A stretch of 64,000 nucleotides of DNA, from contig NC_080418.1 of the NCBI RefSeq assembly GCF_029873635.1, positions 13,061,562 to 13,125,561 of the forward strand, read 5' to 3'. The translations under genes were made by a program, and so were the position numbers. Under the pieces are notes generated by a model. That model made no database searches, was not told the origin of the DNA, and saw nothing but the letters and a program-made list of their open reading frames with translations. The DNA is from Malania oleifera (taxonomy: Eukaryota; Streptophyta; Magnoliopsida; Santalales; Ximeniaceae). Of the stretch, positions 7,540 through 59,708 are shown piece after piece. Within the stretch, counting starts at the first letter, position 1; every line of letters begins with the position of its first letter.

Positions 7540-9899
7540 TGTAATGACCCGAAAATTAAAACTATAAATAATTGGGAAATATAATTAATGAAAAAGATAA
7601 TAAGGGGGAAAGGAAAAAAATTGGAGAAGTAATAGCAAGCCTCGTCGAAGAATGTTCTATCTTTGTCGACGAGTGTCCTTCTAAAGATCATCAACAAATT
7701 CAGTTCCTCGTCGACGAAGGAATCCCGAGAGAGTAAATTTTAAACTCTGAATTTCATCGATGAAAGTATCTTCTCGTTGACGAAGTAACTTCAGTGACTC
7801 ATCCACGAACCCACGTGTCTTGTCGACGAATCCACATGGCAGCAGTGTCTATAAAAAGGTCCAAGGTTGCTTCCACGCGAAGAAAATAATTTTTCTTCAT
7901 TTCTCTCTCTACAAATTCGGTTTTTCTCCCTTCTCTCTTCAATTTCGGGCTAGATTTGACCCGATTTGACTATCTAGAACCACCATGAGGTTCATAGGAT
8001 CGTTCTCTGCCAGGCTATAGGAGCTGATCGTTGGTTTGAAAGGTTTGGAAAACATCCCAAATCAAGGTAAGTGAGTTATGTTGGGAATTTCTTAATGAAT
8101 ATTGTTATTTGGAGCCTATGAAGTATTAAATAAGTATTTTTCTTAAGATTTGAGTCAGTTGGGGTTTATTTAATTAAACTAGGGTTTCTAATTCAGGGTC
8201 CAAGTGAATGTTGTGGGTATCAGTTCAAGGATCCTGCCAGCGTAGTTTAGAAGTCAGGTAAGGGGAAATTATATATTAAATCAGGTTTTATAAAATTAAA
8301 GGTAATAAATTATGTTATATTTATGTATATGTTTTGATGTGAATTATTAAAATGTCAACCATGTAAATTATGTTTTCTGAGCCTAGGATTGCTTATATAG
8401 CTATGTATATGTGAAAATAAACTGATGAAAGTGAAAGGTATTTTCAAGAAAATTATGTAAGAAATGATGGGTATTTTTAGCATATAAATGTTAAATGTGG
8501 GTTGGCTTATTTTATAAGAAATATGTATGAATTTTATTGCTAAACTGTGTGTGGCATGAGTATATGTAAATCCTGTGCAAATATATGTTAAATGTATAAG
8601 ATGCAGGTTAAGTAAGTAAAGCATTAAGAATAAAATATGAAATGAACTATGCTACTTGTGTATGTTAATGCAACCATGTAAATGTAAGACAGTTGAAAAG
8701 AGCCATGTTAGCAAATTCTACCACATTTCTATGTAGACTAACTGATGACAGCTAAAAGGAGCTGTAGACTAACTGATGATGGCTAAAGACCAGTTGTAGT
8801 ATGAATGAATGAAATGAAAATGGAATGAAATGGCAATGAAATGACAATGGAATGAAATATAAAATGTGAACGATGAAAATGGGAAAAAGTCACTTAAAGT
8901 GAAATGTAATACAATGTTAAAGCTATAAACATGAACAGAAGTGAATGGTTGAATAATGACAGAAATAATAATGTATTATGATATTAGAATTATTTATGCT
9001 TGTAGAACATGTTAAGAGTGGGTGGGGCGCACTGTTCGCTCGAGTGCATGCTGAGAAAGTCGAGTGCGCTAGTAACTTCATATGTGGCAGTAGCTGCATA
9101 ACGTACTAGGGCAGAGGGAACCTACTTGTATGAGCGGGTAGATTTCCCTATTCTTGGGAGCCTTCACTGGTAAACCTTTGTTTGAACCATGTGAGTACGA
9201 GATCAATCTAATACTTGAGGGCTTACTAAGTAAGGTGAGTGCCCTGGTATGCTTCAGCAGCAATCTTAGGGTTGCCTAAGTATCAGAACAGAGGGGTGCT
9301 ACTTATATGGGCGAGTAATCACCCCTATCCTTGGGTAATCTCGTGGGTTAAATCTTTTGCATGTGATTGATTAGGTTCAAAGAATGGTTTCAGTGTTTAT
9401 GATAATGTTTTGCAAATGTTATTAAATAATATTTATAAACCTCATGTTAGCCACACGCTATTTTTAATATAATGTTTCTTCCCTTACTAAGATGTGTCTC
9501 ATTCGAATATGATTATTTATTTTTCAGGACATCCTCGAGATCGGGCTTAGAGAGCTCGAGGGTTTATAGCATTTTTTTAGGATTATAAAGAGGAAGGGTA
9601 TATTTTGATATATTGTTGGGTTGTATAAAGTTTAGGTTTATGTTTTATGTTTTAAGTCCGTTAGGAAAGGAATGATTGTGAATATTGGTTTTGTGGATTT
9701 AGTTTTGGAGGTATATAGATTTGTGAATATAGGTGGATGAATGGATAATATGGATTATAGATAGAAATAGTAAACTCTGGTATTATATTTATGGAGATTA
9801 TGTTTATGTTTTCCACTGCGTATATATTAATTTATGGATTATTAGGATTTAATCAGGTATAATGCACCGGACCCGAGTTTAAGGGTTCGGGGCGTTACA
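7540..9899 (+). mobile_element. Solo LTR C, long Tekay/Del-type Ty3 LTR
   Basis: A 2.36-kb LTR with terminal inverted repeats TGTAATGACCC and GGGGCGTTACA and perfect target duplication TTTCT (7535-7539 and 9900-9904), inserted into solo LTR B. Order along it: U3 with a phased palindrome array (7640-7830), TATA box TATAAAA at 7850, leader, donor-like AATCAAG|GTAAGTGAG near 8066, second donor-like GTCAG|GTAAGGGG near 8255, a short duplicated segment near 8740-8800, then CTTACTAAGATGTGTCTCA near 9482 and an acceptor-like TTTTTCAGG near 9527. There is no coding region, so it is a solo LTR. The palindrome array and order of parts tie it to the LTRs of elements G, K and L. Confidence 0.9.
7640..7830 (+). 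promoter_or_regulatory. Phased palindrome array upstream of TATA in LTR C
   Basis: Eight intact or decayed copies of TCGTCGACGA have their GTCGAC-equivalent core at about 7644, 7665, 7690, 7710, 7756, 7776, 7801 and 7822, giving spacings 21-25-20-46-20-25-21. CCCGAGAG sits in the central gap and CCACGTGTC (ACGT core) lies between the last two sites. TATAAAA follows at 7850. Function as binding sites is inferred from conservation and phasing. Confidence 0.75.
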
Positions 9900-9984: not shown

Positions 9985-12116
9985 TGTTGACCTTATAGGT
10001 CACGCCCGGTTTTGATAATGACAAATACCCACATATTTAATGAATATCAAGTCCATGAGCAAGTCTATATTAGCAGATACATTTATGGCACGTGAATGCT
10101 TAAAGCTTGAAGACAAATTCATGTTTTCGACTGTAATATTCAATAGTGAACTTTGTCTGTAATAGTAACTAGGATATTTGGTTTGTAATAAATACACACA
10201 TCACATGTATGGTTTATTTTGTAAGCTCAAACCAGATGCGAACTAAAAAGTGACCATAGAAAGACCTTAGGGTTTACCCTTCGGTTGACTGACACCGGAC
10301 TTTTTTGGTGTCTTAATTTTGGACGTAAATGACCCTAGGACACATATATTTGCACATATATTTGTTAAACACTTGAATAGGGTTGTATGTTTCGAAATGG
10401 GACCGAAATGCACACTTGGTGCACTTTCGATCGACCGGCCAACATAGTTCATTTTGGCCTGGTCGACCAAACCGGGCCTGGGTCAACAGTTGACCAAGGT
10501 CCTAGTCGACCGAACTATGTAGTTCAAAAAGCCTCGGTTAACCAAAACCTCTCTAGGTCAACATTTTGATCATCTGGTCGACCGAGCCACTTTTGTACTC
10601 CAACTACCTGGTCGACCGAGGGTCCTCAGGAGAAATCCCAACGGTCTGGTCAACCGAACCAGCCAGTTCAAAATGGCCCAATTGACCGAACCTCGGAGAT
10701 TTGAATAATCGCCTTCTCCTGGTCGACCGAGCCTTTAGTTCAAAATCCCCCTAGTCGGTCGAACCATATGAGACCTGGTCGACCAAAACATTTGTGATCA
10801 ACCGGACCTCTCAGGTTGCCCTGATTTTTACCGCGATTAAATATTTTTTAAATAGGGTTAAAATGTTTTAAACGTCATTAAACTTTTCTAACAATCCCTA
10901 ATAGGTCCCCAACGGTCAAAAATTTTGGTATGTCTATATATACCCTCTCATTTGGGAAAATGAAAAAGCGGATTAGAAAATCAAATTCTCTCTCAAGCAA
11001 AATATTTCTCATTGCTCATACTCTTCCAAATACACTCTAACTTACATTCAAAACTCATTAAATCATCTATAAGTGTTCTTAAGTGTTTAGATAGGAAGGT
11101 TTGCTCTCTCGTTGTTGTGATATTGATCCATTTTTATTGAGAGTCAAACCAAAAGGATTCTTAGGGGACTTTTCTAATAAGTTCATCCTAAGAAGACTTT
11201 ACTAGATCTTCTGAGACTGCATATTCGTTGCAACATCTTGAGAAGCTCGTATTTGCTTTTGGTTGCGAAATATTTTCAAAATCATTTACAAATATCTATT
11301 GCTCTTTATTTTGAAAATCATTTGAGGAGATATTTGTTTTTGAGGTGAAACATCTTTGTTGCAATATTTATTCACTCATATATTTTTGCTGAAAATAAAG
11401 ATCATATATATTTTGCAAGTCCAAGCATATACATATTTATGTGATTGAGATATTCTGTTGATCGATACTCTTGAGGCTTGCTTGATATTCTGTGTGAGCA
11501 CGTTTGATTGAATATCTTGAAATACATAGATTGTCATTGACACTCTCACGTACGTATTACATTGATAGAAAATATATTTGAGAGTTGAACTATTTAGACC
11601 ACACTGAACTTACATTATTAAATCATCTGTGGTGTTTGTGATTGTGCGCATTTGGGTACAATTCTACTTTACGTGAAAGCACCCTTATATTGTACCTTTT
11701 GATTGTATATTTGAGAGATTTCAGGCGTGCCCTAAGGGGGCGGTAATCCAGTCCGGTAAGGATTGGTGTAAAGGTTGAGGTTAGCCTTGTGCTAATTGAC
11801 CTGGTTTGTATAGGTGTCGCTCCATCCGTTTAAGTGAGCAAGTTATTGTGATAATCCTTTTGCTAGTTAGCCAAGGCGGGGACGTAGGCAGTTGGCCGAA
11901 CATCGATAACATATCTGCGTGTCACCCTCTCTTTACTGCTTTCTGGTGCTTGTATGATTGATTAAACTGCTTTACTTAATTTCTGTTGTATCTATATTAC
12001 TTGCACTAGATTGACCAGAGGATTGTGAACATACTGCTGTTAGGAGGAATACCTAGGGGATAGATTTTAAAAATACCAATTCACCCCCCCCTCTTAGGAT
12101 CACGGTAAAGCTAACA
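9985..12116 (+). mobile_element. Solo LTR D (copia-like)
   Basis: A 2.13-kb LTR beginning TGTTGACC and ending GCTAACA, with target duplication GCTTG (9980-9984) versus ACTTG (12117-12121; one mismatch). It is inserted into the piece of solo LTR B that follows C. It holds an array of GGTCGACC-type palindromes at 10430-10802, TATA (TATATATACC) near 10933, and near 11876 the motif GGGGACGTAGGCAG. From memory, that GGACGTAGGC motif is common near the 3' part of some copia LTRs. The end has TTCACCCCCCCCTCTTAGG. There is no coding region. The superfamily call is by motif only. Confidence 0.82.
10430..10802 (+). promoter_or_regulatory. Array of GGTCGACC palindromes in LTR D
   Basis: About fourteen intact or decayed TGGTCGACCGA sites lie within 370 bp, upstream of the TATA box near 10933. 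Clear cores are at 10462, 10505, 10577, 10611, 10722 and 10778, with variants (GTCAAC, GTTGAC, ATCGAC) between. Spacing is irregular (about 20-40 bp), unlike the Ty3 LTR arrays, but the GTCGAC core and the position upstream of TATA are the same. Confidence 0.7.
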
Positions 12117-13891: not shown

Positions 13892-14028
13892 TGTAACGAC
13901 CCATAAAATATTGATATTCAAATATTAAATAAAAAGGAAAAATGGAAACAAAAACAGAAGGAGGAAGTAGGCTTGATCGACGACATCGCATTTTGAAGAT
14001 AATAATAATTTCAAGAGATTGCCAGAAC

Positions 14029-14255
14029 TCGTCGACGAATACAAGCTTCGTCGATGAGTGCATAAGGAAACTCGTCAATGAATACAAGGCTTTGTCAACG
14101 AGTATATAAGGAAATTCGTCAACGAATTCAGGGCATCGTCGATGAGAAAATACCGAGAGGGGGTATGGAGCAGCCTGAATTTCATCGACGAATACAGGGA
14201 CTCGTTGACGAATTTAATGAAAGACTCGTCGATGAGGTGACGTGTCTCATTGACG
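14029..14255 (+). promoter_or_regulatory. Phased palindrome array upstream of TATA in LTR E
   Basis: Ten sites of the TCGTCGACGA type with cores near 14031, 14050, 14074, 14094, 14118, 14138, 14184, 14204, 14228 and 14249. Spacing alternates about 20 and 24 bp, with one 46-bp gap that contains ACCGAGAGGGG. GTGACGTGTC lies between the last two sites, and TATAAAT follows 17 bases later. This is the longest version (six plus four sites) in the window. Confidence 0.78.
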
Positions 14256-14811
14256 AATATGGCAGTATAAATGGAGGGAAACCGGGAAATTTTGTCATTT
14301 TCAGTGCCCTTCTCTCTCTCCTCTCTCTCTCTCTCTCTATGACTCTCTCTCATTTCTCTCTTCGTTTTTGGGCCTGTTTCTTGTCGGATCAAAGATCTGA
14401 GGCTACCACGACTCTCCTGGTGAAATTCTCTACAAGTTTGCCATAGCGAATCATCTAAGAAACAAAGTTGGATTTCATCCCAAATTCAGGGTAAGGCCTT
14501 TTAGCCTATTTTTGGCTTTATGGTAGTTATAAGAAATGATGTACATGATGAAATACTGATGTTTTGTTCTGGGGGATCGCGTTTTTAGGATGTTGGGCTA
14601 GGAACCCTACGGGTATAGAGTCAGAATTATATAGGGGCTTTTCAAAGTTAAGGTAAGGGAAATATGCTATGCTAGGAGTTTTCATAATGCTATTAGAAAT
14701 TTCATTGACACATGTTTATACTAGTTTATTATACAGTATTTACAAATTATGAGTTTAAATACTTGTGTGGCCTAAGTAGACTTTTATGTCACAATGAAAT
14801 TTATATAGATT

Positions 14812-14816
<5 letters not shown>

Positions 14817-14850
<34 letters not shown>
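14817..14850. repeat. (TA)n microsatellite
   Basis: TA run inside LTR E; a second run lies at 15022-15050. Confidence 0.95.
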
Positions 14851-14854
<4 letters not shown>

Positions 14855-15019
14855 CATACCATACTGAATGCATGAAAGTAGACAGCATATACAGTTTACA
14901 TAGTTTTTCCCAGTGAATGGAGTTATACAGAATATGCAGCTACAGATATATATTCACAAAAAATTATACAAAGAATTGTACATGCATTCACAGCTTTTAT
15001 ACGAATAGTTTCATGAAAC

Positions 15020-15056
<37 letters not shown>

Positions 15057-16217
15057 CATGTATACAGTATTATTCAGAATAGTATTTATATCACAGCTTT
15101 ATACAGAACAATAAATACAGAGTTTAGTATGTCATGTTTCCTATTACCATAACATACAGAGCATACAAACAGAGAATATAGACAGTGATATAGACAGATA
15201 TATATATATATATATAGAGGTAGCTTCAAGATGATACAGATACAGAATACAAAGTTTATAGTATTTACAGTACAGAAAGGTAGCATGATGGTAATTTTGG
15301 AAACATGGCGAAAATAGTAAATGAGTATATATGTATATATGTATATAGTATCAGATCCCTGTGGAAAGATTACAAACAAATACAGTACAAATATAAATTA
15401 TAGAGCATGGTATCGTTGCTATATACAGATAGAGTGCAACCACATATCTCAAATAGTGTGTGGGTACCATCTAACCGTGCTCGGAGAGGATGCAGCTCCC
15501 CAGTACGCTGGGTAGAGGGGGCCGGTTAGATGAGGTAGTAGCCAGTCCCGCGCCTAGGAGAGGATGTAGTTTAGCCGGACTGAGGTAGTGTAGAGTATAT
15601 TGACTTATCTGGAGGGCCGACCAGATAGAGTCCGACCTACGAGCCGCACAACCTTGTTATGAGGGGTCAAATCATGACGTACAGAGTCCCAAGGATAAAG
15701 CACAGTTATGTATATGTATACAGTATTACAGTATATGATGAGTATAGTATGATATTATCAGTATGAAAAGTAGAAAATACAGACGATACAGTATATTTTA
15801 AATTGAGAAAGATAGACATGCTTGAAAGATGTATTTTACAGATTGTTGCATTATAGTTCAGTTGCTATTTTTAAAAGTATTCTTAACTTAGCTGTCACAC
15901 ACTAGTAATAGCATATTTCAACTTACTGAGCATCGACTCGCCCCATTATTTTACCATTTTTCAGGTGAACTAACTAGGCAAGCAGATCAGGCTTGTGGAT
16001 AGAAAGTAGTTAGATCACCCTGATTATAGGGTGAGTTTTTGTCAGAGCTGTATATTTTTGAGTAGATGATACTGGAGGGCTATTTTTGTATGGATATGGT
16101 CTGTATATACTGGATTCTAATATTGTATAGTAAATATGTGATTGGTTGTATGTGTTATGTTTCCGCTACTTAGGTATGGATATATATATAAAATGGATAG
16201 AATTTAAGGTCGTTACA

Positions 16218-20312: not shown

Positions 20313-20544
20313 TGTAGAAACTAGAACCCAAAAAATAAAAGAAAATAAATTTAAAAGAGAGAAATAAAGGAAACAAAAGAAAAATGAAGAAATTCAGCTG
20401 GCAGGACCAAATTGTAGACAATTTTTGAGAGCAAATAAAAATCCTTGTCGATTTTGGGTCAACTGGGTGAGTCAACCACAAAATCGGCGACATTTTTGTG
20501 GGAACGAGGGAAACCAGTGCCGATTTTCTCCTAGGCTGCTCACC

Positions 20545-20766
20545 TATAAATAGAAGTGAGCTCATTTTTTTAAGGAATCTCAAATTTTTCACTTTTGAAG
20601 TTCTGCTAAGGTTTCGAGTATTTTTCACTAAAAGGCTCCTATGGGCTCTCTCTTACTCCCGGATCACTCTCCCTTCCCGGCTCATAGGATGTCGAGTTTC
20701 CACCGGTTCAAAAGCTAGGGTTTCAGTTTTTCCATCTGTTTTGGTTTCTTTTTCAGAATCAGGTAA
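20545..20766 (+). promoter_or_regulatory. LTR F promoter, leader and splice-donor-like site
   Basis: TATAAAT (20545-20551) is followed by a pyrimidine-rich leader that ends in TCAG|GTAAGG. The same unit recurs in the 3' LTR (TATAAAT at 36035, donor border 36255/36256). An acceptor-like TTATTTTCAG ends at 22662, just before the gag ATG. Splicing here would remove about 1.9 kb, including the primer-binding site, from a gag mRNA while unspliced RNA kept it. Use of these sites is inference. Confidence 0.5.
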
Positions 20767-21115
20767 GGGGATTACGTTAAGTCAACTTTTTAATGAATTT
20801 GAACCGTACGAAATGTTTTTGGAGTAAGTATATTTATGTTTTTAGTTGATATTTCAAAAACCAACTGTTCAAACGATCCTTTTTCAAACCTAGGATACAA
20901 GTTATTCTATTTTAAGTAAAAATGAATGGTAGGAAGTTTGGTTTATCTTCTAAACCGATGATGCTAAGTTTTTCTTGGTTGCCTACGGGCTATGTTTTAA
21001 AATACGGGAAATTGTGTGGCAGGTAAATGATATGTACGTAGTACTTTGTAATCGAAATGATGAATGTTTGTGAAATACTAGAACTATATGTGAAAATGTA
21101 GGGAGTTTTATATGT

Positions 21116-21230
21116 ATGATGGTCACGAGGGCCGAGCTATATGTATGATGGCTGCGAGGGTCAAGCTTTATATCATGGCCATGAGGGCCAAGTTATATAT
21201 ATGATGGTTGCAAAGGCCGAGTTTTATACT
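21116..21230 (+). repeat. Tandem short stem-loop array in LTR F
   Basis: Four imperfect units of about 29 bp carry GGTC-ACGAG-GGCC, GGCT-GCGAG-GGTC, GGCC-ATGAG-GGCC and GGTT-GCAAA-GGCC. Every unit can fold a 4-bp stem when G-U pairs are allowed. The 3' LTR has the equivalent array at 36636-36712. Confidence 0.65.
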
Positions 21231-22209
21231 ATGACAAGTTTTATATGAAATGAGTTGAAATATGGTTTTATATTAGTTAAATTGCATGATATGCTTTAGG
21301 AACCCTAAGGACCCTTATGTTTTGAGCACGGTATCGTTGCTAAACGTTCTTTATGTGGTCGTGTGCACCCACACTGTACTACAAGAGTGGTGTCAGTGGT
21401 TTCAGCCGATTAGCCTTAGTAGAGAGTGTACCTTCCGTAAAAGCTCGGACTTTTAGAATGTGGTAGAGCAATCAAAACCACGCAAGCAATTTGCGGATGC
21501 CTGCATAGTTGGAGTAAGACCTGGATGTATGTTTGACCTTGTCTGAGTTGATCACCCCAGGCTTTGTCCAGCCTTTAGGCCACACAACCCTGACCATGGT
21601 GGTTTATACATGGCATTTACGGATTGTCTTTTATGCATATCTGTAGATTTATGTAAATGATATTATGTAATTAATGAAATGTTTATATAAGGAATATTAA
21701 GCAAGTATTTCCAATTGTATGAGTACGTATAATGCAAAGTAGCTATTTTTGGTCAAATGAAGAATGAATGTTTTCTCTAAGCACTAAATGCATGCTGCCC
21801 ACATAGTAATATTAACTTGATCATCCTTGCTGAGAAGTGTTTCACCCCAATATACAAATCATCTTTTCAAAAATAACAGGTATCGTGCTTAGCAGGATCA
21901 GAGGGTGAAGGTTAGAATAGTTTCTTTTTGGGAAGATCTGTATGGTCTCAGGTGTATGTAAATTATGTTGTAAGTCATTAGTCTTGTATAATGGTTGAAT
22001 GGACCAAACTAGTTGTCCTTTTTGGGTCGGATTGTAATATGGATGTTTGGAAACCTTTATGTTTGAAAGGAACTTAGAACTCTGGTAATGTATGTTTGGA
22101 TAATGTTTCATTACTTTTGCTGCATTTATTATGATAAATATGGTATCAGGTACATAGACATCACTAAAGTAGCTGCCCGAGCCCATGTGGCGGGTCGGGG
22201 CGTTACAAG

Positions 22210-23981: not shown

Positions 23982-24535
23982 TGTAATGACCCAAAAATTA
24001 CACCTTTTTTTTTATATAATATATATATATATATGAAATAGATTAATCTTTTACCCCTGTTAAACCTGTTATAACATCTTAGGCCTTATATGGGCACTGA
24101 GGTATCCCTGTATATGAATATACAACCTATGCAGTGGAAAACATAAAGTCATACATCCATATATATACAATACTAGAATTCAATGTTTCCGAACCATATA
24201 TACTTATTTACACATCTCCCCAATGCCATTACTCAAAACATAATCTTCTGAATACACTAACCCTATAGGCAGGCCAAAACAAATGATCTCTCTATCTGAG
24301 AGCTTGATGTGCTTGCCTAACTTATTCACCTGAAAAATGTTAGATTATTGGTCTGATAAATATATGTAATACTTATCTGATAAACATCTATGTGGTAAAT
24401 ATTTGTCTATACATGTATATATTGTAAATCATGATATTCTGGAAAAACTACATAAATTTCGTATCAGACGAATATCCACTCAAGCCACACAAATAATAAT
24501 AAAACTCATATCCTGGAAAAACTGGATGATAAACT

Positions 24536-24537
<2 letters not shown>

Positions 24538-24592
<55 letters not shown>
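24538..24592. repeat. (TA)n(GT)n compound microsatellite
   Basis: TA run followed by GT units inside the 3' LTR of G. The 5' LTR has a TA run at 31547-31580 in the same place. Confidence 0.9.
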
Positions 24593-24960
24593 ATTATGTA
24601 TATACAAAATTTTCTAATAACCTTGCTAAAATTCCTAGTATAGCATATTTCCCTTAAAGCCCTTACAAAGTCTAGTCTCGCACCCACGGGGTTCTACATT
24701 CAATATCCTGAAAATAGCATCTCCCTAAACAAAACTTCAGTATTTCTTTAACTACTACATTTTCTACAACTCTGGGAAAGAAAAATACTAAATAAAAAGT
24801 CTTACCCTGAATTTAGGATGGAATTCAAGTCAGCCCCACCAATGATTTACTCCGGCAGACTTGAAGAGAACTTTTCCAAGAGTGTCGTGGTGGCCTCGGA
24901 TCGTCGAACCAGCGAGAAACAGAGCTGAAATTGAAGAGATAAGGGGAGAGGGTCGATTTT

Positions 24961-24997
<37 letters not shown>

Positions 24998-25055
24998 TTC
25001 CTGCGCGATTTTCTGTGAAAAATCAAGTTTTTGGCTTACTTATAGACCCGAATTC

Positions 25056-25238
25056 GTCGACAAAACACGTCATCTCATCAACAAGTCCATGAAGGAAGTT
25101 CGTTGCCAAACATAAAACCCTTATCGACGAATTTCAGACTACCAAACCCCCTCTCAGTAACTTCTCATCAACGAGACACGTGTCTATGTCGACAATCCCT
25201 AGTAGAATACTCTTCGACGAAGTCCTGCATTAGTTGAA
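25056..25238 (-). promoter_or_regulatory. Phased palindrome array in LTR of element G
   Basis: Eight sites with cores at about 25056, 25077, 25102, 25123, 25167, 25188, 25213 and 25233 give spacings 21-25-21-44-21-25-20, nearly a mirror image about the centre. CACGTC lies between the two TATA-proximal sites, and CCTCTCAGTAAC sits in the central gap. The TATA-like sequence (TATAAGTAAGCC on the minus strand) is about 15-20 bp away. Confidence 0.75.
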
Positions 25239-25591
25239 GAGACCCTTCAAATCCTTTTTGAAATTTTCCTTTCCTTCTTTTTTATTATTTAATTATCATA
25301 ATTCTACAGATCTCTACATTTTCCCCTCCTTATAAAATTTTTTCCTCGAAATTTACTATCTATATTGAACACCATCCATTAAGTAAAATAGACTAATTAT
25401 TTTATTACTTACCCTCACTTATGGCAGAGGAATATTGTGGTTACATTTAGGGTTTTGGAAGATTACAACTATGTTTATAAAAGAAAATTCTCCCAAAACC
25501 AAAATACTACCTATCCTAATCTAAAATTACATTATACATTCATTACCCTATACTAAACAAAATAAAACTATCATTACTTTACAAATCACTG

Positions 25592-28500
25592 TTATACCCC
25601 AATAAACATATGTGGGTATGTCTGTTTGATTTTCTCTTCTAGTTCCCAAGAAGCTTCCTCCACTACACGATTCCTCCATAAGACTTTTACTAGTGGTATT
25701 TTCTTACTGCGCAACTCCTGTTCTTTTCTATCTAAGATATGTACTGGAGTTTCCTCATAAGCTAGAGTATCACTGAATTCTAATTCTACATAACTGATGA
25801 TATGGGAAGGATCAGGGGCGTATTTTCTTAACATAGAGACATGAAATAAATCATGTATTCCGTACAAAACTGGTGGTAAAGCTAGTTGATAGGCAACTAA
25901 CCCAATCTTCTTAAGTATTTCAAACGGGCCAATAAACCTAGGGCTCAACTTACCCTTCTTCCCAAATCTCATGACTCCCTTCAGTGGTGCTATTTTCAAA
26001 AATACATGATCACCCACTTTAAATTTCAATTCCCGGCGGCGAGTATCTGTGTAGCTTTTCTGCCGAATCTGTGCTGCCCTGATTCTATCTTTAATAAGTC
26101 AAACTTTATTGTATTGTATGCCTGCTGCACTATTTCTGGCCCCAAAACTTGCCTCTCACCTAGCTCATCCCAGTATAGAGGAGAACGCCACCTCCTACCA
26201 TAAAGCACCTTGTAAAGTGTCATGCCTATGCTGGCATGATAGCTATTATTGTAGGCAAACTCAACCAGTGGCAAATTCTAGGTCCAGCTACCCCCAAAGT
26301 CCAATACACACGCTCGCAGCATATCCTCAAGTACTTGAATACACACCGGCACTCCGTGGGGTTGAACAATCTCCTGAATGTAAATCTTTGCCAATATGTT
26401 CATAGGGTAGCTAACTTTAATAGGTATAAAATGAGTTGTTTTCGTTAGCCGATCAACAATTACCCAGATGGTATTCTAACTATGCGGTGCTGGCGGTAGC
26501 CTAGTGACGAAGTCCGTAGATATGTGGTCCCACTTCCACTTAGGGATAAATAGTGGTTGTAACTGCTCTGCCGGTCTTTGGTGCTCAGCCTTAACCTGCT
26601 GGCACATCAAACACTGCTGCACAAATTCGATAATTTCTCTTTTCATGCCACTCCACTAGAAATACTCTTGCAGATCCCTATACATTTTAGTACTGTCAGG
26701 ATGAACTGTGTATATATCTGTGAGCCTCTTCTAAAATCATTCTCCTAATATCATCATCTGTAGGCATCAGAGATACTAAACTCCTCTCCCTAATCATCCC
26801 GTACTTTGGCTATTACCTCTGCTAATTTTGCTTCGTCACCTTAAGCGGCGTTAATCTTTTCATATAACGTAGGATGCCAACTAGGCTGGCAATAAATGCC
26901 TGAGGATTATCCTCTACTACCTCTATGCCAAGTCTCTCCAAATCCATGAGGATCGGATGCTGAACCTCTATAGCTGCCAGTGCTGGTCCCACTGATTTCC
27001 TACTCAAAGCATCTGCAACCACATTCGTTTTCCTTAGGTGGTAACTAATAGTGCAGTCATAATCTTTAATGATTTTTAGCCACCTTCTTTGCCTCATATT
27101 CAATTTTTTCTGGGTAAAGAAATATTTTAAGCTTTTGTGGTCTGTGAAGATTTCGCATTTCTCCCTATATAGATAATATCTCCTGATTTTTAAAGCATAA
27201 ACCACTGCAGCTAATTCTAAATCATGCACAGGATAGTTCTTTTCATATTCTTTAAGCTGTCTAGATATGTAAGCTATGACTCTTCCATGCTACATTAACA
27301 CACATCCAAGACCCTTCAAAGATGCATCAATGTATATCACAAATCCATCCTCTCCTGATGGAATAGCCAGAACCAACCGCTGCTTTAACTCCTGGAAACT
27401 CTGCTCACAATCACCGGTCCAATCAAACTTCACATTTTTTCTCAAAAGTCATGTTAATGAACCCGATAATCTGTAGAAACCAGCTACAAAGTGTCGATAG
27501 TAGCTTGCCAAACCCATAAAACTCCTGACCTCCTGGACATTTCCTGGCCTTTCCCCACTCACCACTGCCTCTATCTTACTTAGGCCAACCGATATGCCGC
27601 CCTCGGAGATCACATGCCTGAGGAAAGTAACCTGCTTTAACTAGAATTCACATTTCTTGAATTTTGCGTACATCTTCCTTTCTCTCAACGTCTGCAACAC
27701 CAGCCTCAGATGATGCTCTTGCTCCTCAAAACTCCTCGAGTAGACCAATATATCATCAACAAATACAACAACAAACTAGTCCAAGTACTGATGGAATAAA
27801 TGATTCATTAAATCCATAAATACTGCTGGTGCATTAGTTGACCCAAACGGCATCACCAAAAATTCGTAATGCCCATATCTGGTTCGGAATGTTGTTTTCA
27901 AAATATCCTCTATTCTAACTTTCACCTGATGATAACCAAACCGTAGGTCAATTTTGGAGTAGACTTGAGTCCCTTGGAGCTGATCAAATAAATCATCGAT
28001 CTTAGGGAGAGGTATTTATTCTTGATTGTCAGTTTGTTTATCTCCCTATAATCTATACACAACCTCATGGTACCATCTTTCTTCTTCACAAATAAAACCG
28101 GTGCCCCCCAGGGCGACACACTGGGCCTGATAAATCCCTTATCTAGCAACTCTAGTAACTAATCTTTCAATTCCTTTAATTTGATTGGAGCCATATGGTA
28201 TGGTGCTATAGACACCGGTGCTGACCCCGATAATAGATCCACGGTAAATTCAATTTCTCGATCTGGTGGTAAGCCAGGCAATTCCTCTGAAAAAACATCG
28301 AAAAATTCTCTACCTACTGATATATCAGCTTGTTTTAGTTCTTCTTTTGGCAATTCCTTCATATAGGCAACATATCCTTGGCAACCACCCTGTAGCAATC
28401 TCCTCACCTAAATAGCTTACACAAGCTGTGGCGAGGCACGTACACGTGAACCCAAAAATTTGTATTCTTACTCACCCAGGGGTCTGAAAATCACTTCTTT

Positions 28501-28899
28501 TTTATGGCAATCTATGATGATGTGATTAGCTACTAGCCAATTCATACCCAGTATTACATCAAACCCCTGCATATCTAGGACCATGAGATCAGCTGGTAGT
28601 ACTTTCTCCTGAATGCTTATTGGAAAGTTCCGAAGCACCTTCCTACATCTTACCATAAATCCCGACGGCATGACCACAGACAACTCTACATCTAATAACT
28701 ATGCCTCTACCCCAGTTACTCTAACATAGCCCGTTGATACAAAGGAATGGGTGGCACCTGTGTTAAACAAAATAATAACTTTATATGATAACACAGTAAG
28801 TGTACCTATGAAAACGTCTCCAATAGTCTCGACGTCTCCCGACATCAATGCATATACCCTCGCTGACGCTTGTTCCTCTACTAGCCTCCGTGAGGCGCC
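25592..28899 (-). pseudogene. pol: pol of element G: protease, RT, RNase H, integrase, chromodomain
   Basis: Read from high to low coordinates. The protease has LFNTGATHSFVS near 28770 (catalytic Asp of DTG changed to Asn) and the flap-side DMQGFDVILGMNWLV near 28560. RT runs from about 28150 ([24 protein letters not shown]) to 27500, with the catalytic FVDD intact near 27750 but a TAG just before it. RNase H follows ([11 protein letters not shown] near 27130, then the ADALSRKS linker). Integrase follows, with its HHCC finger near 26590-26750 and a catalytic-core stretch above 26400. The C-terminal part (25592-26029) holds the GPFEILKKIG module and the chromodomain-like IPLVKVLWRNRVVEEASWE, typical of Tekay/Del. 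Stops and frameshifts occur throughout. The enzyme would copy element RNA to cDNA and insert it. Confidence 0.85.
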
Positions 28900-29880
28900 T
28901 AATGACCACCCTGGTTCAATCTAGGAGTTGGTGCATGAATCGGCATCATATGATATGATCGAGCCATATGGAAGGATCTCCCACAACGGTAGCAGACATT
29001 CTCCCCCAACCAGCACACACCTAGATGTCTCCATCCACATCTAGGGCAAGTGGGATAAGACTATCCACCCTGGAATCCACTGTGTTCTACCTTCCGCCTC
29101 TGACCCCACTCGATCTACCTCCTTTCCAAGGGCCTTGGCTGGACCACGCCTGAAAACTCGAGGGTGCGGTCTTCTTCTTCAAGCTCTGTATCTTAGTCTC
29201 TCTTGGCAAAATCTCCTCTGCTATTATAATCCGGTCAACCAGCTCTGAGAAATCATGTATCCTCAGTACTACCACCTGTCTATAAATACCTCACTTCAAA
29301 TTCCTCTCAAACATCCTAGTCTTCTTAACTTCATCTCGAACAATATAAGGGCAAAAACATGATAACTCTATAAATTTTGCCACGTACTGCTGGACTGTCA
29401 TCGATCTCTGGGATAAGTTCAGAAACTCCTATACTCTAGCCTCTCTGATTGAGGGAGGATAGTATCTATCAACGAATATGTCCCTAAATCGGCCCAGATC
29501 ATCGGCACTAGAATTGATCTCTGCTCCTCCAGTAATTTAGTGGTCATCCACCATCTCTCAGCCTCCTTTATCAGCTTATAAGTAGCATAAAGGACTCTCT
29601 GCTCATCGATGCAGTGAAGTACAATCAAAATCTTCTCTACCTTCCGCACCCAATTCTCCGCAACTGCAGGATCAGCCATTGCTGAAAATGCTGGTGGTTT
29701 CATTTTCGTAATTTTTTCTATCATGCACCGCTGAGCTAGAGATGGACCTCCCTATTCCCTGGAGCTCCGAGCAATCTCAGCCATGACCTGCTGAGCTACA
29801 CTGCATAGCACAGCATCTGAATCCCCACCTTCTACACCAGAAGGCCCTGCTCCGTCGTCGCCACTAGAATACTAACTAAC
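28900..29880 (-). pseudogene. gag: gag of element G
   Basis: The minus-strand frame begins near 29880 with family-typical DDGAGPSG and VMAEIARSSRE, but I see no ATG in the expected place. It continues as KMKPPAFSAMADPAVAENW (29700 region) and the KEAERWW-type capsid motif near 29565. Near 28980-29050 are two zinc knuckles, CPRCGWRHLGVC and CYRCGRSFHMARSY; the second has lost its final Cys. Several stops break the frame. Confidence 0.78.
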
Positions 29881-30167
29881 TAAAATACCCCTAACCTCTT
29901 ATTACTAATTTAAGGTCAAGCCCTATCGTATGGAAATAGAAATCATCGATAGTTTACTATGGTTTTCTTGGAATTGTCACCCTAGAAAAATCACAGAAAC
30001 CACCCTGAAACTCTACCTCCAAACCGCAGAACAGAACCCTAAATTTTCATTCTAATTTCCCAGCATTAATTCACTAATATCTTGTTCCACTCTTCTTAAG
30101 ATTCCTTTTCTAAATTTTGGTATTGTTTTCCACTGTACTCTAGAATCTACAAAACCTAGCTAACCTA

Positions 30168-30180
30168 GGCTCTGTTACCA
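30168..30180 (-). other. Primer-binding site of element G
   Basis: The minus strand reads TGGTAACAGAGCC a few bases from the 5' LTR end at 30184, a one-base variant of the Met-tRNA site. Confidence 0.82.
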
Positions 30181-30183
30181 AAC

Positions 30184-31542: not shown

Positions 31543-31588
<46 letters not shown>

Positions 31589-32312
31589 CATGTATGTATG
31601 TACAAAATTTTCTAATAACATTGCTAAAATTCCTAGCATAGCATATTTCCCTTACTTGATTTCGAAAAAGCCCCTACAAATTCTAGTCTCAAACCCGTGG
31701 GGTTCCACGTTCAATATCTTGAAAATAGCATCTCCCTGAACAAAACTTCAGTATTTCTTTAACTACTACATTTTCTACAACTATGGGAAAGACAAATACT
31801 AAATAAAAAATCTTACCTTGAATTTGGGATGGAGTTCAAGTCAGCCCCACCAACGATCCACTCCAGCAGACTTGAAGAGAACTTTCCCAAAAGTGTCGTG
31901 GTGGCCTTGGATTATCGAACCAGTGAGAAACAGAGCTGAAATTGAAGAGAGAAGGGGAGAGGGTCGATTTTAAGAGAGAGAGAGAGAGAGTAAAGTTCTT
32001 GCGTGATTTTAAAAATCTGGTTTTTGGCTTACTTATATACCTGGATTTTTCGACAAGATACGTCATCTCATCAACGAATCCATGAAGGAAATTTGTCACC
32101 AAACATGAATCCCTCATCGATGAATTTCAGACTGCCAAACCCCCTCTCGGTAACTTCTCATCGACGAGAGACGTGTCTACATCGACGATCTCTAGTAGAA
32201 TACTCGTTGACAAATTCCTGCATTCATCGAGGAGACCCTTTAAATCCTTTTTGAAATTTTCCTTTCCTTCTTCTTTTATTATTTAATTATCATAACTCTA
32301 CAGGTCTCTACA
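30184..32312 (-). repeat. 5' LTR of element G
   Basis: 2129 bp. It retains the whole module: palindrome array near 32049-32238, donors (GGGTAAGAC- and CAAG|TAAGGG-like), the block with GGTTGTGTGGC near 30843, GATGAGACGACGCTCAATAA near 30560 and TTTTTCAGG near 30540. By eye it clearly differs from the 3' copy at many positions, so the insertion is not recent. Confidence 0.9.
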
Positions 32313-35804: not shown

Positions 35805-36385
35805 TGTAGAAACCTCGACCCAAAAAATAAAAAAAAATTTAAAAGAGATAAATAAAGGAAAAAAAAATAAAAAGGGAGAAATTCAGCTGGCAAGACCAAA
35901 ACCGTCGACGATTTTTGAGAGCAGAGAAAAATCATCACCGATTTTGGGTCAACTGGGTGAGTCAACCACAAAATCGACGACGGTTTTGTGGGAATAGGGG
36001 AAACTGGCACCGGTTTTCTCCTAGGCCACTCACCTATAAATAGAAGTGAGCTCATTTTCTTAAGGAATCTTAAATTTTTCTCTTTTGGAGCTCTACTAGG
36101 GTTTCAAGTATTTTTCACTAAAAGGCTCCTACGGGCTCTCTTTTACTCCCGAATCACTCTCTCCCTTCCCGACCCATAGGATCTCGAGTTTCCACTAATT
36201 CGAAAAGCTAGGGTTTCGATTTTCCCATCCATTTTGGTTTCTTTTTCAGAATCAGGTAAGGCGGTTAAGTTAAGTCAGCTTTTTAATGAATTTGAACCGT
36301 ATGAAATGTTTTTGGAGTAAGTATATTTATGTTTTTAGTTGATGTTTCAAAAACCAACCGTTCAAACGACCCCTTTTCAAACCTA

Positions 36386-36428
<43 letters not shown>

Positions 36429-43690: not shown

Positions 43691-44429
43691 CATAATATAT
43701 TGAACATAATTTTTATGTACTGTTTAATATGTAAAAACATGATTCTTGTATTGTTTTATAATTGCCCATGCTTGATCTAGGAAAAACATTCTATTCTGAT
43801 ATACACATTATATGGAAATTAAACTCATGCCACACAGAAGTAGGGTAACCTCTTGAATGTAAAATTTGTTCCAAAATCATATTTGCTTATTAAACACTTT
43901 TAAATCATATTCCTGTTCATAACAGTATTTTCCAAACATATTTATATAATATACCTACTTTCCTAAAATTTAATGCTGTAAAAATAATAAATAATTTCAT
44001 GAAAGATTGTGCTTTAGTTTATCCCCTTACCTGGCTTACTGAGAAGCCCACAAAACCCCTAATTCCTACACTTGTAGTGTTCCCAGCACAACACCCTGAA
44101 ATTAACATTTTTCCCAACAAAACTTCTGTATTTACTTTCCTAACATATCTTCCTTAGTCCAAAAACACCAAATACCCAAAAATACTGAAATTAACTTACC
44201 TAAATTTTTGGGATGGTTCCCAAGTTAGCCAAACCAACGATCTACTCCAGCAGATGTGAAGAGAATCTTCCCAATGGTAGCATGGTGGCTTCGGATTGTC
44301 GAACCGGTGAAAACTCGATCCAGAAACTTAGAGAGAAGGTAGAGGGGATGAATTCTTTGAGAGAGAAAGAGCCACATGCAAATTTCCTGCGCTGAAATCA
44401 GATTTTGGCATACTTATACACTGGCCTTC

Positions 44430-44611
44430 GTCGACAAGACACGTCACTTCATTGATGAGGTCCAAAACAAAGTTTGTCGACGAACATTTACTTATCATCG
44501 ACGAATTTCAAGCCCTACAACAACCCTCTTGGTAATTTCTCATCGATGAGACACGTGGCGTGCGATGAATCTAGTAGTGAGTTCATCGACGAAACCAAAG
44601 GGTTCATCGAC
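44430..44611 (-). promoter_or_regulatory. Phased palindrome array in LTR K
   Basis: Cores near 44430, 44451, 44476, 44497, 44542, 44562, 44585 and 44606 (spacings 21-25-21-45-20-23-21). ACACGTCAC lies between the two TATA-proximal sites, and CCTCTTGGTAA is in the central gap. A minus-strand TATAAG lies about 15 bp from the first site. Confidence 0.75.
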
Positions 44612-44966
44612 GAACCCTGCAATTTCTTTCTTTTTGAATCTCCTTTTTCTCCCTCTATTATTATTTAATTTTTATAATTCTTCGGGTCTCTAGATTCTCC
44701 CCTCCTTATAAAATATCATCCTCAAAATTTACTATTTGAGCGATTTACCATCCCTTAAAGAAAATGGGCTACCTATTTTATTACTTACCCTCACTTATGG
44801 CAAAGGAATACCGTGGTTACATTCAAGGTTCTAGGAGATTACAAATACATAAAATAAAATTCTCCCAAAACCAAAATATTATCTACTACCAAAAAGACTA
44901 TTACATGCACTGACTAACCTGCAAAAGAAATATTACATATTTACCTATATCTTTTCCTAATTACTA

Positions 44967-47880: not shown

Positions 47881-48109
47881 TTGTTTATGCTGAAAATTGA
47901 GTTAAAAATCCAGGTTTCAGCTATTTATAGAGCCAGATTCGTCGACGAGACACGTCACCTCGTCAACGAGTTATGTAGAAAGTTTGTCGACAAACCTACA
48001 CCCTCGTCGACAAGTTTCAGAATTCCAAAAACCCTCTCTTGGTATCTTCTCGTCGACAAAACGCCTGTGTTAGTCAACGAGGCCAGGAAAAATTTCTTGG
48101 GTTATTACA
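45974..48109 (-). repeat. 3' LTR of element L
   Basis: 2136 bp; its left end is TATAACAACC (decayed TGTAACGACC). It carries the GCCCGTAGGC block near 46640, donor-like CAGGGTAAGG near 47685 and AGGTAAGGGAAATATG near 47513, an (AG)n run at 47840-47877, and palindrome cores at 47941, 47962, 47986, 48006, 48052 and 48073 (spacings 21-24-20-46-21). Confidence 0.9.
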
Positions 48110-54167: not shown

Positions 54168-54212
<45 letters not shown>

Positions 54213-55243
54213 CTGTCTGTATCATCTGTGATTTTTGTCTGTACAATCTGTAATATCTCTATAAAATATTTGCATATAATATTTGTATATTCTATATATA
54301 ATATATGTAATCTTTGAACAATCTAACTATAGCATCTTGATGCTATAATTGCATAATCTGTCTGAATAAACTGTCTAAGTGTTATGGTTTAGAAATCATG
54401 TTATTCTGAGAAATATTGTAAGTCTCATTCATTGTTATAATCTGTATAACTGAACATCTGTAATACTGTAAAATCTACATACTATACTATAATAAACTCA
54501 TGCCACACATTTGGATAATCAAAATCTCAGGCTCAATTTCTGTAATTCTGTTGTAAAAATAGTATTCATGCTATTCTAGAAAAATAATTTGATTTGCATG
54601 CTTGTAAATACATATTCATATTCTTTTAAAATATATAACGAAATCTCTAGCATAGCATATTTCAATTACCTAAACTTTGGAAAACCCCTATTGTACTCTG
54701 GCCCTATACCCGCAGGGCTCCCTGCTCAACATCCTGAAAACAACATCCCTTAGAAAAAAATATCAGTATTTTTTCTACATGCAACATTTCTTATAACTGT
54801 AGGAAAAGCTAATCCTGAATAAATTGTCTTACCCTAAAACTGGGATGAATTTCAAACTATCTCTACCAATGTTCAGTTCCGGCAGACTTGTAAAGAACTT
54901 CGCCAAGAGCGTTATGGTGACCTCAGATCTTCAATTCAATAAGAAATGGAGCTAAGATCTAAGAGAGAAGGGGATGGGTGCGTTTTAGAGAGAGAGAGGA
55001 ATTTTCTGTGCTGAAAATTGAGTTAAAAATCCGAGTTTCAGCTATTTATAGAGCTGGATTCGTCGACGAGACACGTCACCTCGTCGAAGAACCTACACCC
55101 TCATCGATGAGACTTCCAAAAACCCTCTCTAGGTATCTTCTCGTCGACGAGATGGGTCTTCATCGACAAGATCCTGAAAACCCTCGTCAACAAAACCCCC
55201 GTGTTCGTCGATGAGGACTGGAAGAATTTCTTGAGTTATTACA
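53091..55243 (-). repeat. 5' LTR of element L
   Basis: 2153 bp, TGTAACGACC to GTTATTACA. It contains the full module including TTTTTCAG (minus strand near 53440), the GGTTATGCGGCCC block near 53750, a (TA)n run at 54178-54207, and palindrome sites near 55063 and on to about 55212. One part of the array (about 55090-55120) is shortened relative to the 3' LTR. Confidence 0.9.
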
Positions 55244-56895: not shown

Positions 56896-57651
56896 ATTTC
56901 ATACATATTATTCTGAATAAATAATATGTTTATCATGTATTTTGAAACCATAATGTACTGCAATATTCCATCATTTCTGAAAACATACCTTATTCATAAA
57001 ATTGTCATAACATAATACTTTTCACGTAAAATAATATTCATGCCACACATTGCTGAATAAAACCATACATTCTATTCTAAAATCATATTTTCTGGCATTT
57101 CTTACTAATACATGCATTTCAGTATCATAATAATATTTTCCCAAATATGTATTTTCTTAATAATATTCAGATATAATACATGTCTTCCTGAACATAATTC
57201 TTCTAATAATTTAATAATAATTTTCATAAAAAAAATAATTGTTTTAGTTTATTCCCTTACCTGATTTCTCAAAGAAACCCCCTAAATATCCTTGTCTTAC
57301 AGCCGTAGGGTTCCCCGCACAACACCCTGAAATCAACATTCCCCAGAATAGAAGTTCAGTATTTCTACGCGTACTATATTTTCTACAACTGTAGGGAAGG
57401 TCAATTACTAAATAAAAGTCTTACCCTGATTTTGAGATGGATTCCAAACTAGCTCCACCAACGATCCACTCCAACAAATTTGTAGAGAACTCTCCCAGGA
57501 GTGTCGTGGCGGCTTCAGATCATTGATCCAACTAAAAGCGGACCCAGAAAACTAGAGAGAAGGATGGGAAATCGAAGAGGAGAGAGGAGAGAATCTGCAC
57601 AAGAAATTTTGGCCAAAAATGAAGTTTTTTCCTATTTATACACTGGCCTTC

Positions 57652-57814
57652 GTCGATGAGCCACGTCACCTCATCGATGAGATTAAGAAGGACGTTCATC
57701 GACGAACATTTGCTTCTCATCGACGAAATTCATAGATAGGCAGATAGTCTCTCGGTACTTTCTTGTCGACAAAGCATACCCTTATCGACGAGCTCAATAT
57801 GTCACGTCGTCGAC
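57652..57814 (-). promoter_or_regulatory. Phased palindrome array in LTR M
   Basis: Cores near 57652, 57673, 57698, 57719, 57765, 57784 and 57809 (spacings 21-25-21-46-19-25). CCACGTCACC lies between the first two sites, CTCTCGGTACTT in the gap. Confidence 0.75.
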
Positions 57815-57870
57815 GAACGCGACCTGTAGTGCCCCCTTTTTAATTTCCTTTTTCTCCCTCTTTATTATTT

Positions 57871-59708
57871 ATATACAATCTCCAAAACACAAAATATTTA
57901 CATATCTAGGAACCCACAACATAAATTTCTTGTCCCTAGATCAAAACTTACCCTCCTAGTAAGGTAATATCACACTATCTCAACGACGACCTCGATCCGC
58001 CAGTCTTTCTGGATTTCCTGAAAATTAATTAATGTTAGGGCTGAGATACCTCTCAGTAAGGGAAAATAAATTAAATGCTGCTGTGTGACAATATGAATAT
58101 TTAGTGCTATAAAACATTTACAGTACATTTCATATGCTAGAAAACATTCATCATAATATACCAAATAATCATATACTTTCATAATTTTTAATAATTCATA
58201 CTGATCATGAAATGTTTGATATAACTAATAATAATGAAATTTACCTAGGATGAATAGCTAGCTGATGTCATGTATTACCCCCCATGACAGGTTGTGCAGC
58301 CCAAAGGTGGGACCCGACAATTGCTAGCCTTCCACTGCCAAGTCAAAATGTCTATAAGTACGATGGGCCCGCCACACCCTGGTCAAAACTGCCAAGTGGA
58401 CGTCTACAACTCTACACTGAAAGTCACATCGACTATCCATCTCCTACCCCCTCTACTAGTAAGGGTAGTTAGCAAAAGTCTGAACATAATCATCTGATCT
58501 GTATAGCTACGGTATCGTGCTCCTGAAATTGAACTAAACTATCATTCAGGTTCTGATAACATATAATACATGATAATATACTTTTCTAATATAAATAGAT
58601 TGATAGCATTTTCTGAAATAACATACATACATATGGTCTTACGCCAGTTTCTTTTATATCTGCGGCCTTGCGCCAAACATTCATAAATATGGCCTTGCGC
58701 CAGCTATCAATCACGGCCTTGCGCCGAACATTTCATACATATTATTCTGAATAAATAATTCATTTATCATGTATTTTAAAACCATAATGTACTGCATTAT
58801 TGCATAATTTCTAAAAACATACTTCATTCATAAAATTTACCATAACATAATACTTTTCTTGTAAAATAATATTCATACCACACGATGCTAAATAAAACCA
58901 TACATTTCATTCTAAAATCATATTTCCTATATAACAACAGTATTTTCTCAAATATGCATTTTCTCAATAATATTCAAATATAATACATGTTTTCCTAAAT
59001 ATAATTCTATTTATCAATTAATAATAATTTTCATGAAAAAATAACTGCTTTAACTCATTCCCTTGCATGATTAGTTGAAAAGAAACACCCCTAAAATATG
59101 CTGGTCCTGCCTTCGCAAGGTTCCCTATTCAATACACTGAAAATGATAACTCTCAGAACTAAATTTCAGTATTTTTCGGTGAATAACATTTCCTATAACT
59201 ATGGGAAGACCAATTTCTAAATTAATAGTCTTACCTTGATTTAGGGATAAATTTCAAACTAAGCCCACCAACGATCCACTCCAGGAGATATGCATAGAAC
59301 TTCCTCAGGAGTGTTGTGGTGGCTTCAGATCGTCGAACCGACGTAAATCCAACCTATAAACTTAAAGAGAATGGAGGGAAAACGAAGAGGAGAGAGAGTG
59401 TGGGTTTTGGGTTAAATTTTCTGCGTAAAATCTAAGTTTAGAACTATTAATACACTAACTTTCGTCGACGAGCCACGCCACCTCGTTGACAAGGTCAAGA
59501 AGGCAATTCGTCGACAAACTTCCCCCCTCATCGATGAAGTTCAAAGTCGCCCAAAACATCTTCTGGGTATCTTCTTGTCGACGAAGCACACCCTCGTCGA
59601 CGAGCCCAAAGTGCAACGTCGTCGACGAAGTCTGCTGCCGCCTTCTTTTATATTCTCATTTTATTCTCTCTTTTATATTTAAATACCATTATTCTTTGGG
59701 TCATTACA
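57871..59708 (-). mobile_element. LTR N, missing its 3' end
   Basis: Aligns with LTR M from about 56009 onwards and ends cleanly with GGGTCATTACA at 59708. Its palindrome cores are near 59464, 59485, 59510, 59530, 59577, 59596 and 59621 (spacings 21-25-20-47-19-25). The left 190 bp of the LTR is missing at the join. The right flank (AGTAT) does not match LTR M's left flank (ATCAC), so M and N come from two different insertions. Confidence 0.85.

Follow-up and report, generated by a model that had tools for sequence, protein, structure and literature searches.

Why should a row of short palindromes keep its layout in LTRs when the spacers between the palindromes have diverged almost to saturation? 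Promoters of retrotransposons change rapidly, and for most cis-elements the exact spacing matters little. The stretch of 64,000 nucleotides analysed here (the window) comes from a plant and is rich in decayed LTR retrotransposons; it contains such palindrome arrays just upstream of the TATA box. Our work suggests that several related Ty3/gypsy families of plants probably use the array as their proximal promoter, in which it would offer a docking platform of conserved geometry to a putative host DNA-binding protein.

Nine arrays and the elements that carry them

The array is present in nine LTRs of decayed plant Ty3/gypsy elements in the 64-kb window (Table 1). An earlier note on this DNA had found it in at least seven LTRs; the array is real, and the count is nine. 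The same note had placed it upstream of the TATA box, and this position holds; seven of the nine copies lie on the minus strand, with the TATA box at their left, and only those at 7642 and 14029 on the plus strand. A left-to-right reading thus runs from the TATA box outward in the seven minus-strand arrays and toward it in C and E, a difference that is easily missed because the near-symmetry of the layout hides the orientation. Throughout, sites are numbered from the TATA box outward.

The consensus of the array site is YTCGTCGACGAR, a CpG-rich 10-bp palindrome, and TCGTCGACGA is its own reverse complement, as had been claimed. With at most one mismatch, the window has 38 copies of TCGTCGACGA, where 0.21 would be expected. 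A scan tolerant of transitions (C>T, G>A) gives 86 matches, 67 of them inside the nine clusters; five shuffled windows give 18-38. There are eight lattice sites in C, G, H and J, ten in E, seven in L, M and N, and six in K. Three sites (G8, H3 and J6) are too decayed for the strict scan and were placed by the lattice; J6, which was set at 150 in the spacing count and shifted by 2 bp in later comparisons, is doubtful. Because all copies come from this one window, they represent about six or seven independent lineages, and the figures given here ignore kinship among them.

The orientation of the elements is fixed by their LTR tips, by target-site duplications (CTAAT for the element at 23982-32312, bounded by G and H, and TTTCT for the solo LTR C; none was seen for E), by the PBS-like sequences TGGTAACAGAGCC beside H and TGGTATCAGAGCC beside L (on the reverse strand), and by a purine-rich tract (PPT) beside G and K at the inner junctions. 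These features support the position of the array upstream of the TATA box within LTRs. A Pfam scan of nine internal ORFs returned reverse transcriptase once, RNase H twice and SH3_Tf2-1 (integrase) three times, with three ORFs giving no match; RVT_1 lies in the K/L element and RT_RNaseH in the G/H element. Five of the nine ORFs have a reverse-transcriptase or integrase-type match, and a further RNase H lies on a neighbouring plus-strand element. These domain families assign the elements to Ty3/gypsy, a placement judged from the families and not from a tree. A weak Chromo match on one of the nine ORFs (44967-45320, beside LTR J), itself among the three with SH3_Tf2-1, has an E-value of 1.5e-4 and 22.0 bits, below the cut-off of 25.1. 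Among the best 120 of 7975 relatives of the G/H integrase ORF, 21 carry PF00385, the top identities belong to Malania oleifera proteins (75, 73 and 69%), and the best E-value to a Tanacetum protein of 52% identity. The array-bearing elements are probably Del/Tekay-like chromoviruses, the clade name being our assumption from LTR and PBS features and from the prevalence of Del in Malania: in the available text of a study of that genome, Del is the commonest Gypsy clade (PMC6377399).

The reverse-transcriptase and integrase ORFs had no relatives in IMG/VR, and the former had none in prokaryote genome contigs. The exact doublet pattern matched ten stretches in IMG/VR, nine of them with 58-72% GC and one with 40%; at one mismatch these contain at most one neighbouring pair at the array spacing, and we take them as chance. 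An antisense reading of the array, used as a protein probe, gave no candidate in a first search and, with six of the nine copies, 1683 candidates, none at E <= 1. LTRs M and N (56004-59708) are 77% identical over 1899 bp; they share one orientation and appear to follow each other head to tail, with no internal region to separate them.

Table 1. Positions of the arrays and associated features in the window, with site-to-site spacings read from the TATA box outward
Feature	Positions	Strand	Spacing (bp)	Remarks
LTR C, solo LTR	7540..9899	+		tips TGTAATGACCC...GGGGCGTTACA; 5-bp target-site duplication TTTCT
Array C, 8 palindromic sites	7642..7829	+	21-25-20-46-20-25-21	starts 7642, 7663, 7688, 7708, 7754, 7774, 7799, 7820
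CCCGAGAG element of array C	7724..7731	+		begins 16 bp past start of site 5
ACCCACGTGTC of array C, ACGT core	7809..7819	+		between sites 2 and 1
TATA box of LTR C, TATAAAAA	7850..7857	+		30 bp from site 1 start
Array E, 10 lattice sites	14029..14256	+	21-24-20-46-20-24-20-24-19	in LTR 13892-16217; outermost doublet duplicates its neighbour in tandem (44 bp)
Array G	25054..25240	−	21-25-21-44-21-25-20	3' LTR of complete element 23982-32312; site 8 placed by lattice
Decayed integrase C-terminal region, element G/H	25592..26095	−		Tf2-type SH3 domain, chromodomain-like tail
Array H	32047..32233	−	21-25-21-44-21-25-20	5' LTR of element 23982-32312 (G/H); site 3 placed by lattice
Array J	44428..44613	−	21-25-21-45-(19-24)-21	close to 'K' of the earlier note; site 6 strongly decayed, bracketed steps hinge on this uncertain site
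Array K	47939..48080	−	21-24-20-46-21	3' LTR of element K/L; ~43 bp (two sites) deleted
Array L	55060..55214	−	21-20-40-19-24-21	5' LTR (53091-55243) of element K/L; ~24 bp (one site) deleted
Array M, 7 sites	57650..57816	−	21-25-21-46-19-25	
Array N, 7 sites	59462..59628	−	21-25-20-47-19-25	

Layout of the array and divergence of its sites and spacers

From the TATA box outward, the common layout consists of a step of 19 bp to site 1, followed by steps of 21, 25, 20/21, 44-47, 19-21, 24/25 and 20/21 bp; the exceptions are K and L, which lost units, and E, which gained one. The spacings that the earlier note had given for C, G, M and N were reproduced, and those it listed for 'K' nearly match the copy at 44428 (J). 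Its statement that spacing does not drift holds across families to within 1-3 bp, but not for unit-sized changes: K lost about 43 bp, L about 24 bp and a further 6 bp in the centre, and E gained a doublet of 44 bp. The distance from the start of site 1 to the TATA box is 19 bp in eight of the nine copies and 30 bp in C, and the gap left between the last site and the box is 9 bp in those eight and 20 bp in C, in place of the 15-30 bp proposed before. For H, which reads TATATAAG, the second TA was taken as the start of the box; otherwise its distance would be 2 bp less. The stretch from site 1 to the TATA box (7830-7849) is 11 bp longer in C than in the other eight copies, which is roughly a helical turn.

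Two further elements accompany the sites. The central gap of 44-47 bp, which is about one 21-bp plus one 25-bp step, houses a CCGAGAG-like element. Its sequence is degenerate, but in every one of the nine copies its offset from the start of site 5 is exactly 16 bp. Between sites 2 and 1, eight of the nine copies have ACGT, a core that we take to be G-box/bZIP-like, and N has GCGT. A second CACGT element, resembling the one between sites 2 and 1, lies between sites 6 and 5 only in G (25175-25185), H (32168-32178) and J (44550-44558).

The idea that all sites share one face of the DNA is not supported: at 10.5 bp per turn and with idealised positions, the doublets lie at about 0, 128, 223 and 343 degrees, as the 25-bp and 44-47-bp steps rotate successive doublets by about 95-130 degrees. 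A single face is thus kept only within a doublet, where 21 bp make two turns, and the array as a whole follows a rotating path. Nor is mirror symmetry supported as a property of its own: the mirrored look follows from the repetition of a 21/25 doublet. The outermost site is missing in M and N, and E extends on one side only. The distance from site 3 to site 6 is a near-constant 86 bp in five of six families (permutation p 0.015, a post hoc figure that uses the doubtful J6).

Downstream in the LTR, a leader block from CCACCA (or a variant) to GGTAAG measures 86-88 bp in all nine copies (e.g. 7980-8071). It is as constant in length as the array, and length constancy therefore marks other parts of the LTR as well. 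The gap rate in pairwise alignments, a weak measure because the aligner gaps freely, does not differ between array and leader (5.75 vs 5.89 per 100 bp). At its end the leader block resembles a splice donor (CAGGGTAAG or CAAGGTAAG, for example), which suggests a spliced leader inside the LTR.

Families resemble one another more in their sites than in their spacers, in line with the multi-site array proposed before: over all 36 pairs of the nine copies, whole-site identity averages 0.78 and spacer identity 0.67. In the LTR pairs of dead elements, whose two members started out identical when the element inserted, the order is reversed, with 0.76 for sites vs 0.88 for spacers in G/H and 0.80 vs 0.86 in K/L. 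This contrast suggests that selection acts in active elements only, and selection on active lineages would be the simplest account, if not a proven one, of the conserved sites and spacing.

When positions were split by base in seven representatives (C, E, G, J, L, M and N), site A/T positions agreed in 582 of 604 comparisons (96%) and spacer A/T positions in 707 of 1139 (62%); the values for C against the other six are 176/180 and 226/370. At C/G positions the sites (607/906, 0.67) do no better than the spacers (588/893, 0.66), and the case for site conservation thus consists of the A/T positions and the spacing. In the dead pairs (G/H, K/L), agreement is 52/52 at site A/T, 49/78 at site C/G, 83/93 at spacer A/T and 70/82 at spacer C/G positions. 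Decay sits at the CpG positions of the site and conservation at its A/T positions. Since the sites were located by their likeness to the core, register choice may contribute to the A/T conservation, and as site A/T positions are unchanged in the dead pairs, part of that conservation may reflect low mutability or the choice of register.

The spacers themselves have diverged almost as far as they can. With optimised gaps, those of C are 0.59-0.66 identical to those of E, G, J, K, M and N, against 0.51-0.57 after shuffling (about 1.4 to 2.5 sd above shuffled); they are therefore near saturation, yet the spacing agrees. In a self-comparison of the window, C had no match of at least 120 bp at E 1e-10 to the other U3s.

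The four A/T positions of the site are kept in 68, 66, 68 and 67 of the 69 listed sites, one of which (J6) is misregistered. The flanking bases are Y and R in 61 of 69, and they do not covary site by site (complementary flanks in 26 of 69, shuffled mean 30.1). That decay proceeds mostly by C>T or G>A, as the earlier note had it, is borne out by 87 of 108 substitutions, or 86 of 99 without the misregistered row J6. In LTR sense these changes are strand-asymmetric, with 55 C>T vs 32 G>A in the 69 sites, which could be due to shared ancestral variants or to biased deamination. The variant TCATCGATGA, in which both outer CpGs are changed, occupies site 4 of four copies (C, H, L and N), and the true tolerance may therefore be TCRTCGAYGA.

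A proposed promoter of constrained geometry and competing explanations

In the promoter that we propose, about eight copies of YTCGTCGACGAR would form four doublets upstream of the TATA box. Each palindrome is most likely bound by a dimer of a putative host DNA-binding protein, since each copy is a full two-fold-symmetric site, and sites 21 bp apart would share one face as doublets. The dimers may be joined, at set distances from the TATA box, by a protein that binds ACGT and by another on the CCGAGAG-like element, so that the near-fixed gaps, the two accompanying elements and the 19-bp TATA step could together yield one assembly of constrained geometry. Protein binding, cooperativity and activation at the array are what we infer from the sequence. 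To our knowledge, none of the bZIP, IDD, DREB, ARF, WRKY and B3 families has a known site equal to TCGTCGACGA.

The array shows how its units come and go. In K and L, the two LTRs of one element, the break points of the losses lie at sites, and the outer doublet of E duplicates its neighbour (36 of 44 positions identical over 44 bp); units of the 21/25 lattice are thus gained and lost through the sites. The array probably grew by duplication of a doublet of roughly 45 bp, after which selection on active elements would have held the sites and the spacing while the spacers diverged; once an element was inserted and silenced, its sites would decay mostly by CpG transitions.

If duplication built the array, it might be nothing but an old tandem repeat without function, the spacing being inherited and the sites alike by shared origin and by low mutability of A/T. 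We consider this improbable. The duplicate in E fits it, with the period of 44 reported there by Tandem Repeats Finder and with E spacers that resemble one another by about 4 sd (mean direct score -1.80 vs -4.27 shuffled), and so do the spacers within C, J and M, at 1.2-1.4 sd above shuffled, and the unchanged A/T positions of the dead pairs. However, among the six of nine arrays examined, G and N have spacers whose mutual likeness does not exceed that of shuffled ones, and Tandem Repeats Finder detects E alone of the nine; a recent tandem repeat without site conservation, the outcome that was to speak against a promoter, is found only in the extra doublet of E. Moreover, from family to family the sites have diverged less than the spacers that were duplicated along with them, whereas in dead pairs whole sites change faster, and a mere repeat leaves the fixed steps to the TATA box and to the CCGAGAG-like element unexplained. 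A role of the palindromes in the U3 transcript or in single-stranded cDNA, where the mirror spacing would make a nested hairpin, seems very unlikely. Against dinucleotide shuffles, the three arrays folded out of nine give z-scores of -1.87 (C), -4.31 (N) and -9.29 (E), and three of the four mirror partners in E are exact reverse complements; but rows of palindromes fold anyway, and five arrays (E, M, N, K and L) lack mirror symmetry. Over the nine copies mirror partners have 76 mismatches against a permuted mean of 73.5 (p 0.76; 0.73 with G-U pairs allowed), and shuffles that leave the sites intact, whether of spacer letters, of the order of spacers or of the order of sites, give z from -2.3 to +1.8 in eight copies. 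This permutation in nine copies and the site-preserving shuffles in eight speak against pairing of mirror partners in RNA or DNA; E alone is striking.

Silencing deserves attention because of the base composition: the nine arrays have observed/expected CpG ratios of 1.36-1.93, the sequence downstream of them 0.35-0.73, and the heavy C>T and G>A decay suggests, from the type of substitution, that the sites were methylated in the dead copies. The array could then be a CpG-dense target of methylation or of a repressor, or a methylation-sensitive switch. We give this little credence, as an element would have no obvious gain from keeping a repressor array, and the fixed TATA step and the ACGT and CCGAGAG-like elements would fit an activator better; a methylation-sensitive activator would unite both readings. 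Palindromes and fixed distances occur near LTR ends in general, and the sites might therefore serve replication, packaging or integration, e.g. by binding integrase or Gag, and not transcription. This is hardly to be expected: where tips are recognisable, the outermost site lies 78-137 bp (C, E, G, H and N) or 29 bp (K and L) from the tip, and the distance to the TATA box is 19 bp in eight of nine copies, unlike this variable tip distance.

Beyond the promoter of constrained geometry that we favour, it is tempting to go one step further. The same GTCGAC-cored type of palindrome is found in unrelated LTRs of the window, namely in a Sirevirus-like array (10428-10804) and in the LTR family at 35805. 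As a tentative idea that we would not expect to hold in full, selection may keep a rigid, enhanceosome-like grammar of doublets at set 21/25-bp steps, a second element and a TATA box at set distances across several Ty3/gypsy families, and one conserved, methylation-sensitive plant factor may have been used convergently by all these LTRs. Nearly saturated spacers combined with persisting sites and spacing make these LTRs a natural experiment on strict promoter geometry, setting dead LTR pairs against living lineages would test for selection directly, and YTCGTCGACGAR doublets are a concrete bait for the protein that would activate these abundant plant retrotransposons.

Relation to known LTR motif clusters

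Our literature search, which covered a minority of subscription journals, found no paper on the array. Among the matches listed, the exact 10-mer returned no LTR title, and GTCGACGA combined with retrotransposon and LTR no plant LTR by title; nothing was found on Tekay with DAP-seq or on palindromic LTR promoters with spacing. CGACG is known as the G box coupling element (CGACGOSAMY3 in PLACE), which has 5 bp and is neither palindromic nor arrayed. TCGTCGACGA holds CGACG on both strands, with an ACGT core nearby, a short match that could be due to chance. The portion available of a general paper on LTRs describes the TATA box and the LTR tips and mentions no such array (PMC3601003).

A functional analogue is provided by ONSEN/COPIA78 and other Brassicaceae COPIA elements, whose LTRs also contain clusters of a short motif for a host transcription factor: according to the text available, these are heat-responsive elements, and the number and spacing of their units bear on their strength (PMC5059998, Pietzenuk et al. 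2016). There, however, nGAAn units at most 5 bp apart, putatively bound by heat-shock factor, belong to Ty1/copia elements (PMC5059998), whereas the arrays described here consist of 10-bp palindromes in steps of 21-25 bp.

Other LTRs of the window also carry palindromes. At 10282-10804 (10428-10804 for TGGTCGACCG itself) there is a TGGTCGACCG-like array that resembles the Vitis type of Sirevirus boxes; with at most two mismatches CGGTCGACCG has 15 matches in the window against 3.3 expected, ten of them within 10282-10785. The spacings in this single copy are less regular, from 16 to 41 bp, with 32 occurring four or five times, and TATATATA follows at about 10935, some 130 bp past the array. 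A different LTR family lies at 20313-22207 and 35805-37512; in its copy at 35805, AAACCGTCGACGATTTT and similar sites precede a TATA box (36035) at another spacing, and in the copy at 20313 the AAACCGTCGACGATTTT-type sites have decayed.

The closest known system is that of the repeated motif (RM) boxes of Sireviruses, a group of Ty1/copia elements. As far as the accessible part of their description goes, these are palindromic, CpG-rich repeats with at least eight copies per element; most of them occupy the upper half of the LTR, a short way before a conserved TATA box, and they stay conserved while their flanks diverge (PMC2829016, Bousios et al. 2010). The arrays studied here share the palindromic, CpG-rich repeats in the LTR upstream of the TATA box, and they come with 6-10 lattice sites per LTR; the RM count includes the linker (PMC2829016, same part). 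From the same source, the Vitis RM box CGGTCGACCG has the GTCGAC core of our array site, and the Tnd-1 box ACAATCGATTGT has ATCGAT in common with the TCATCGATGA variant. All RM boxes given there but that of Tnd-1 show a CGG-CCG signature (PMC2829016), which TCGTCGACGA lacks, and the G/H and K/L interiors as well as the neighbourhood of J give Ty3/gypsy-type domains. Membership among the Sireviruses thus fails, because of the other superfamily and the lack of a CGG-CCG core. The RM motif is called Sirevirus-specific and absent from classic Ty1/copia elements in the text at hand, with Ty3/gypsy outside the set analysed, and that text does not report fixed spacing between boxes (PMC2829016), whereas the spacing here is near-rigid. 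Our work therefore extends the palindrome arrays of Sireviruses to another superfamily, in a new variant that differs from the RM boxes by its Ty3/gypsy carrier, its other core and its near-rigid spacing.
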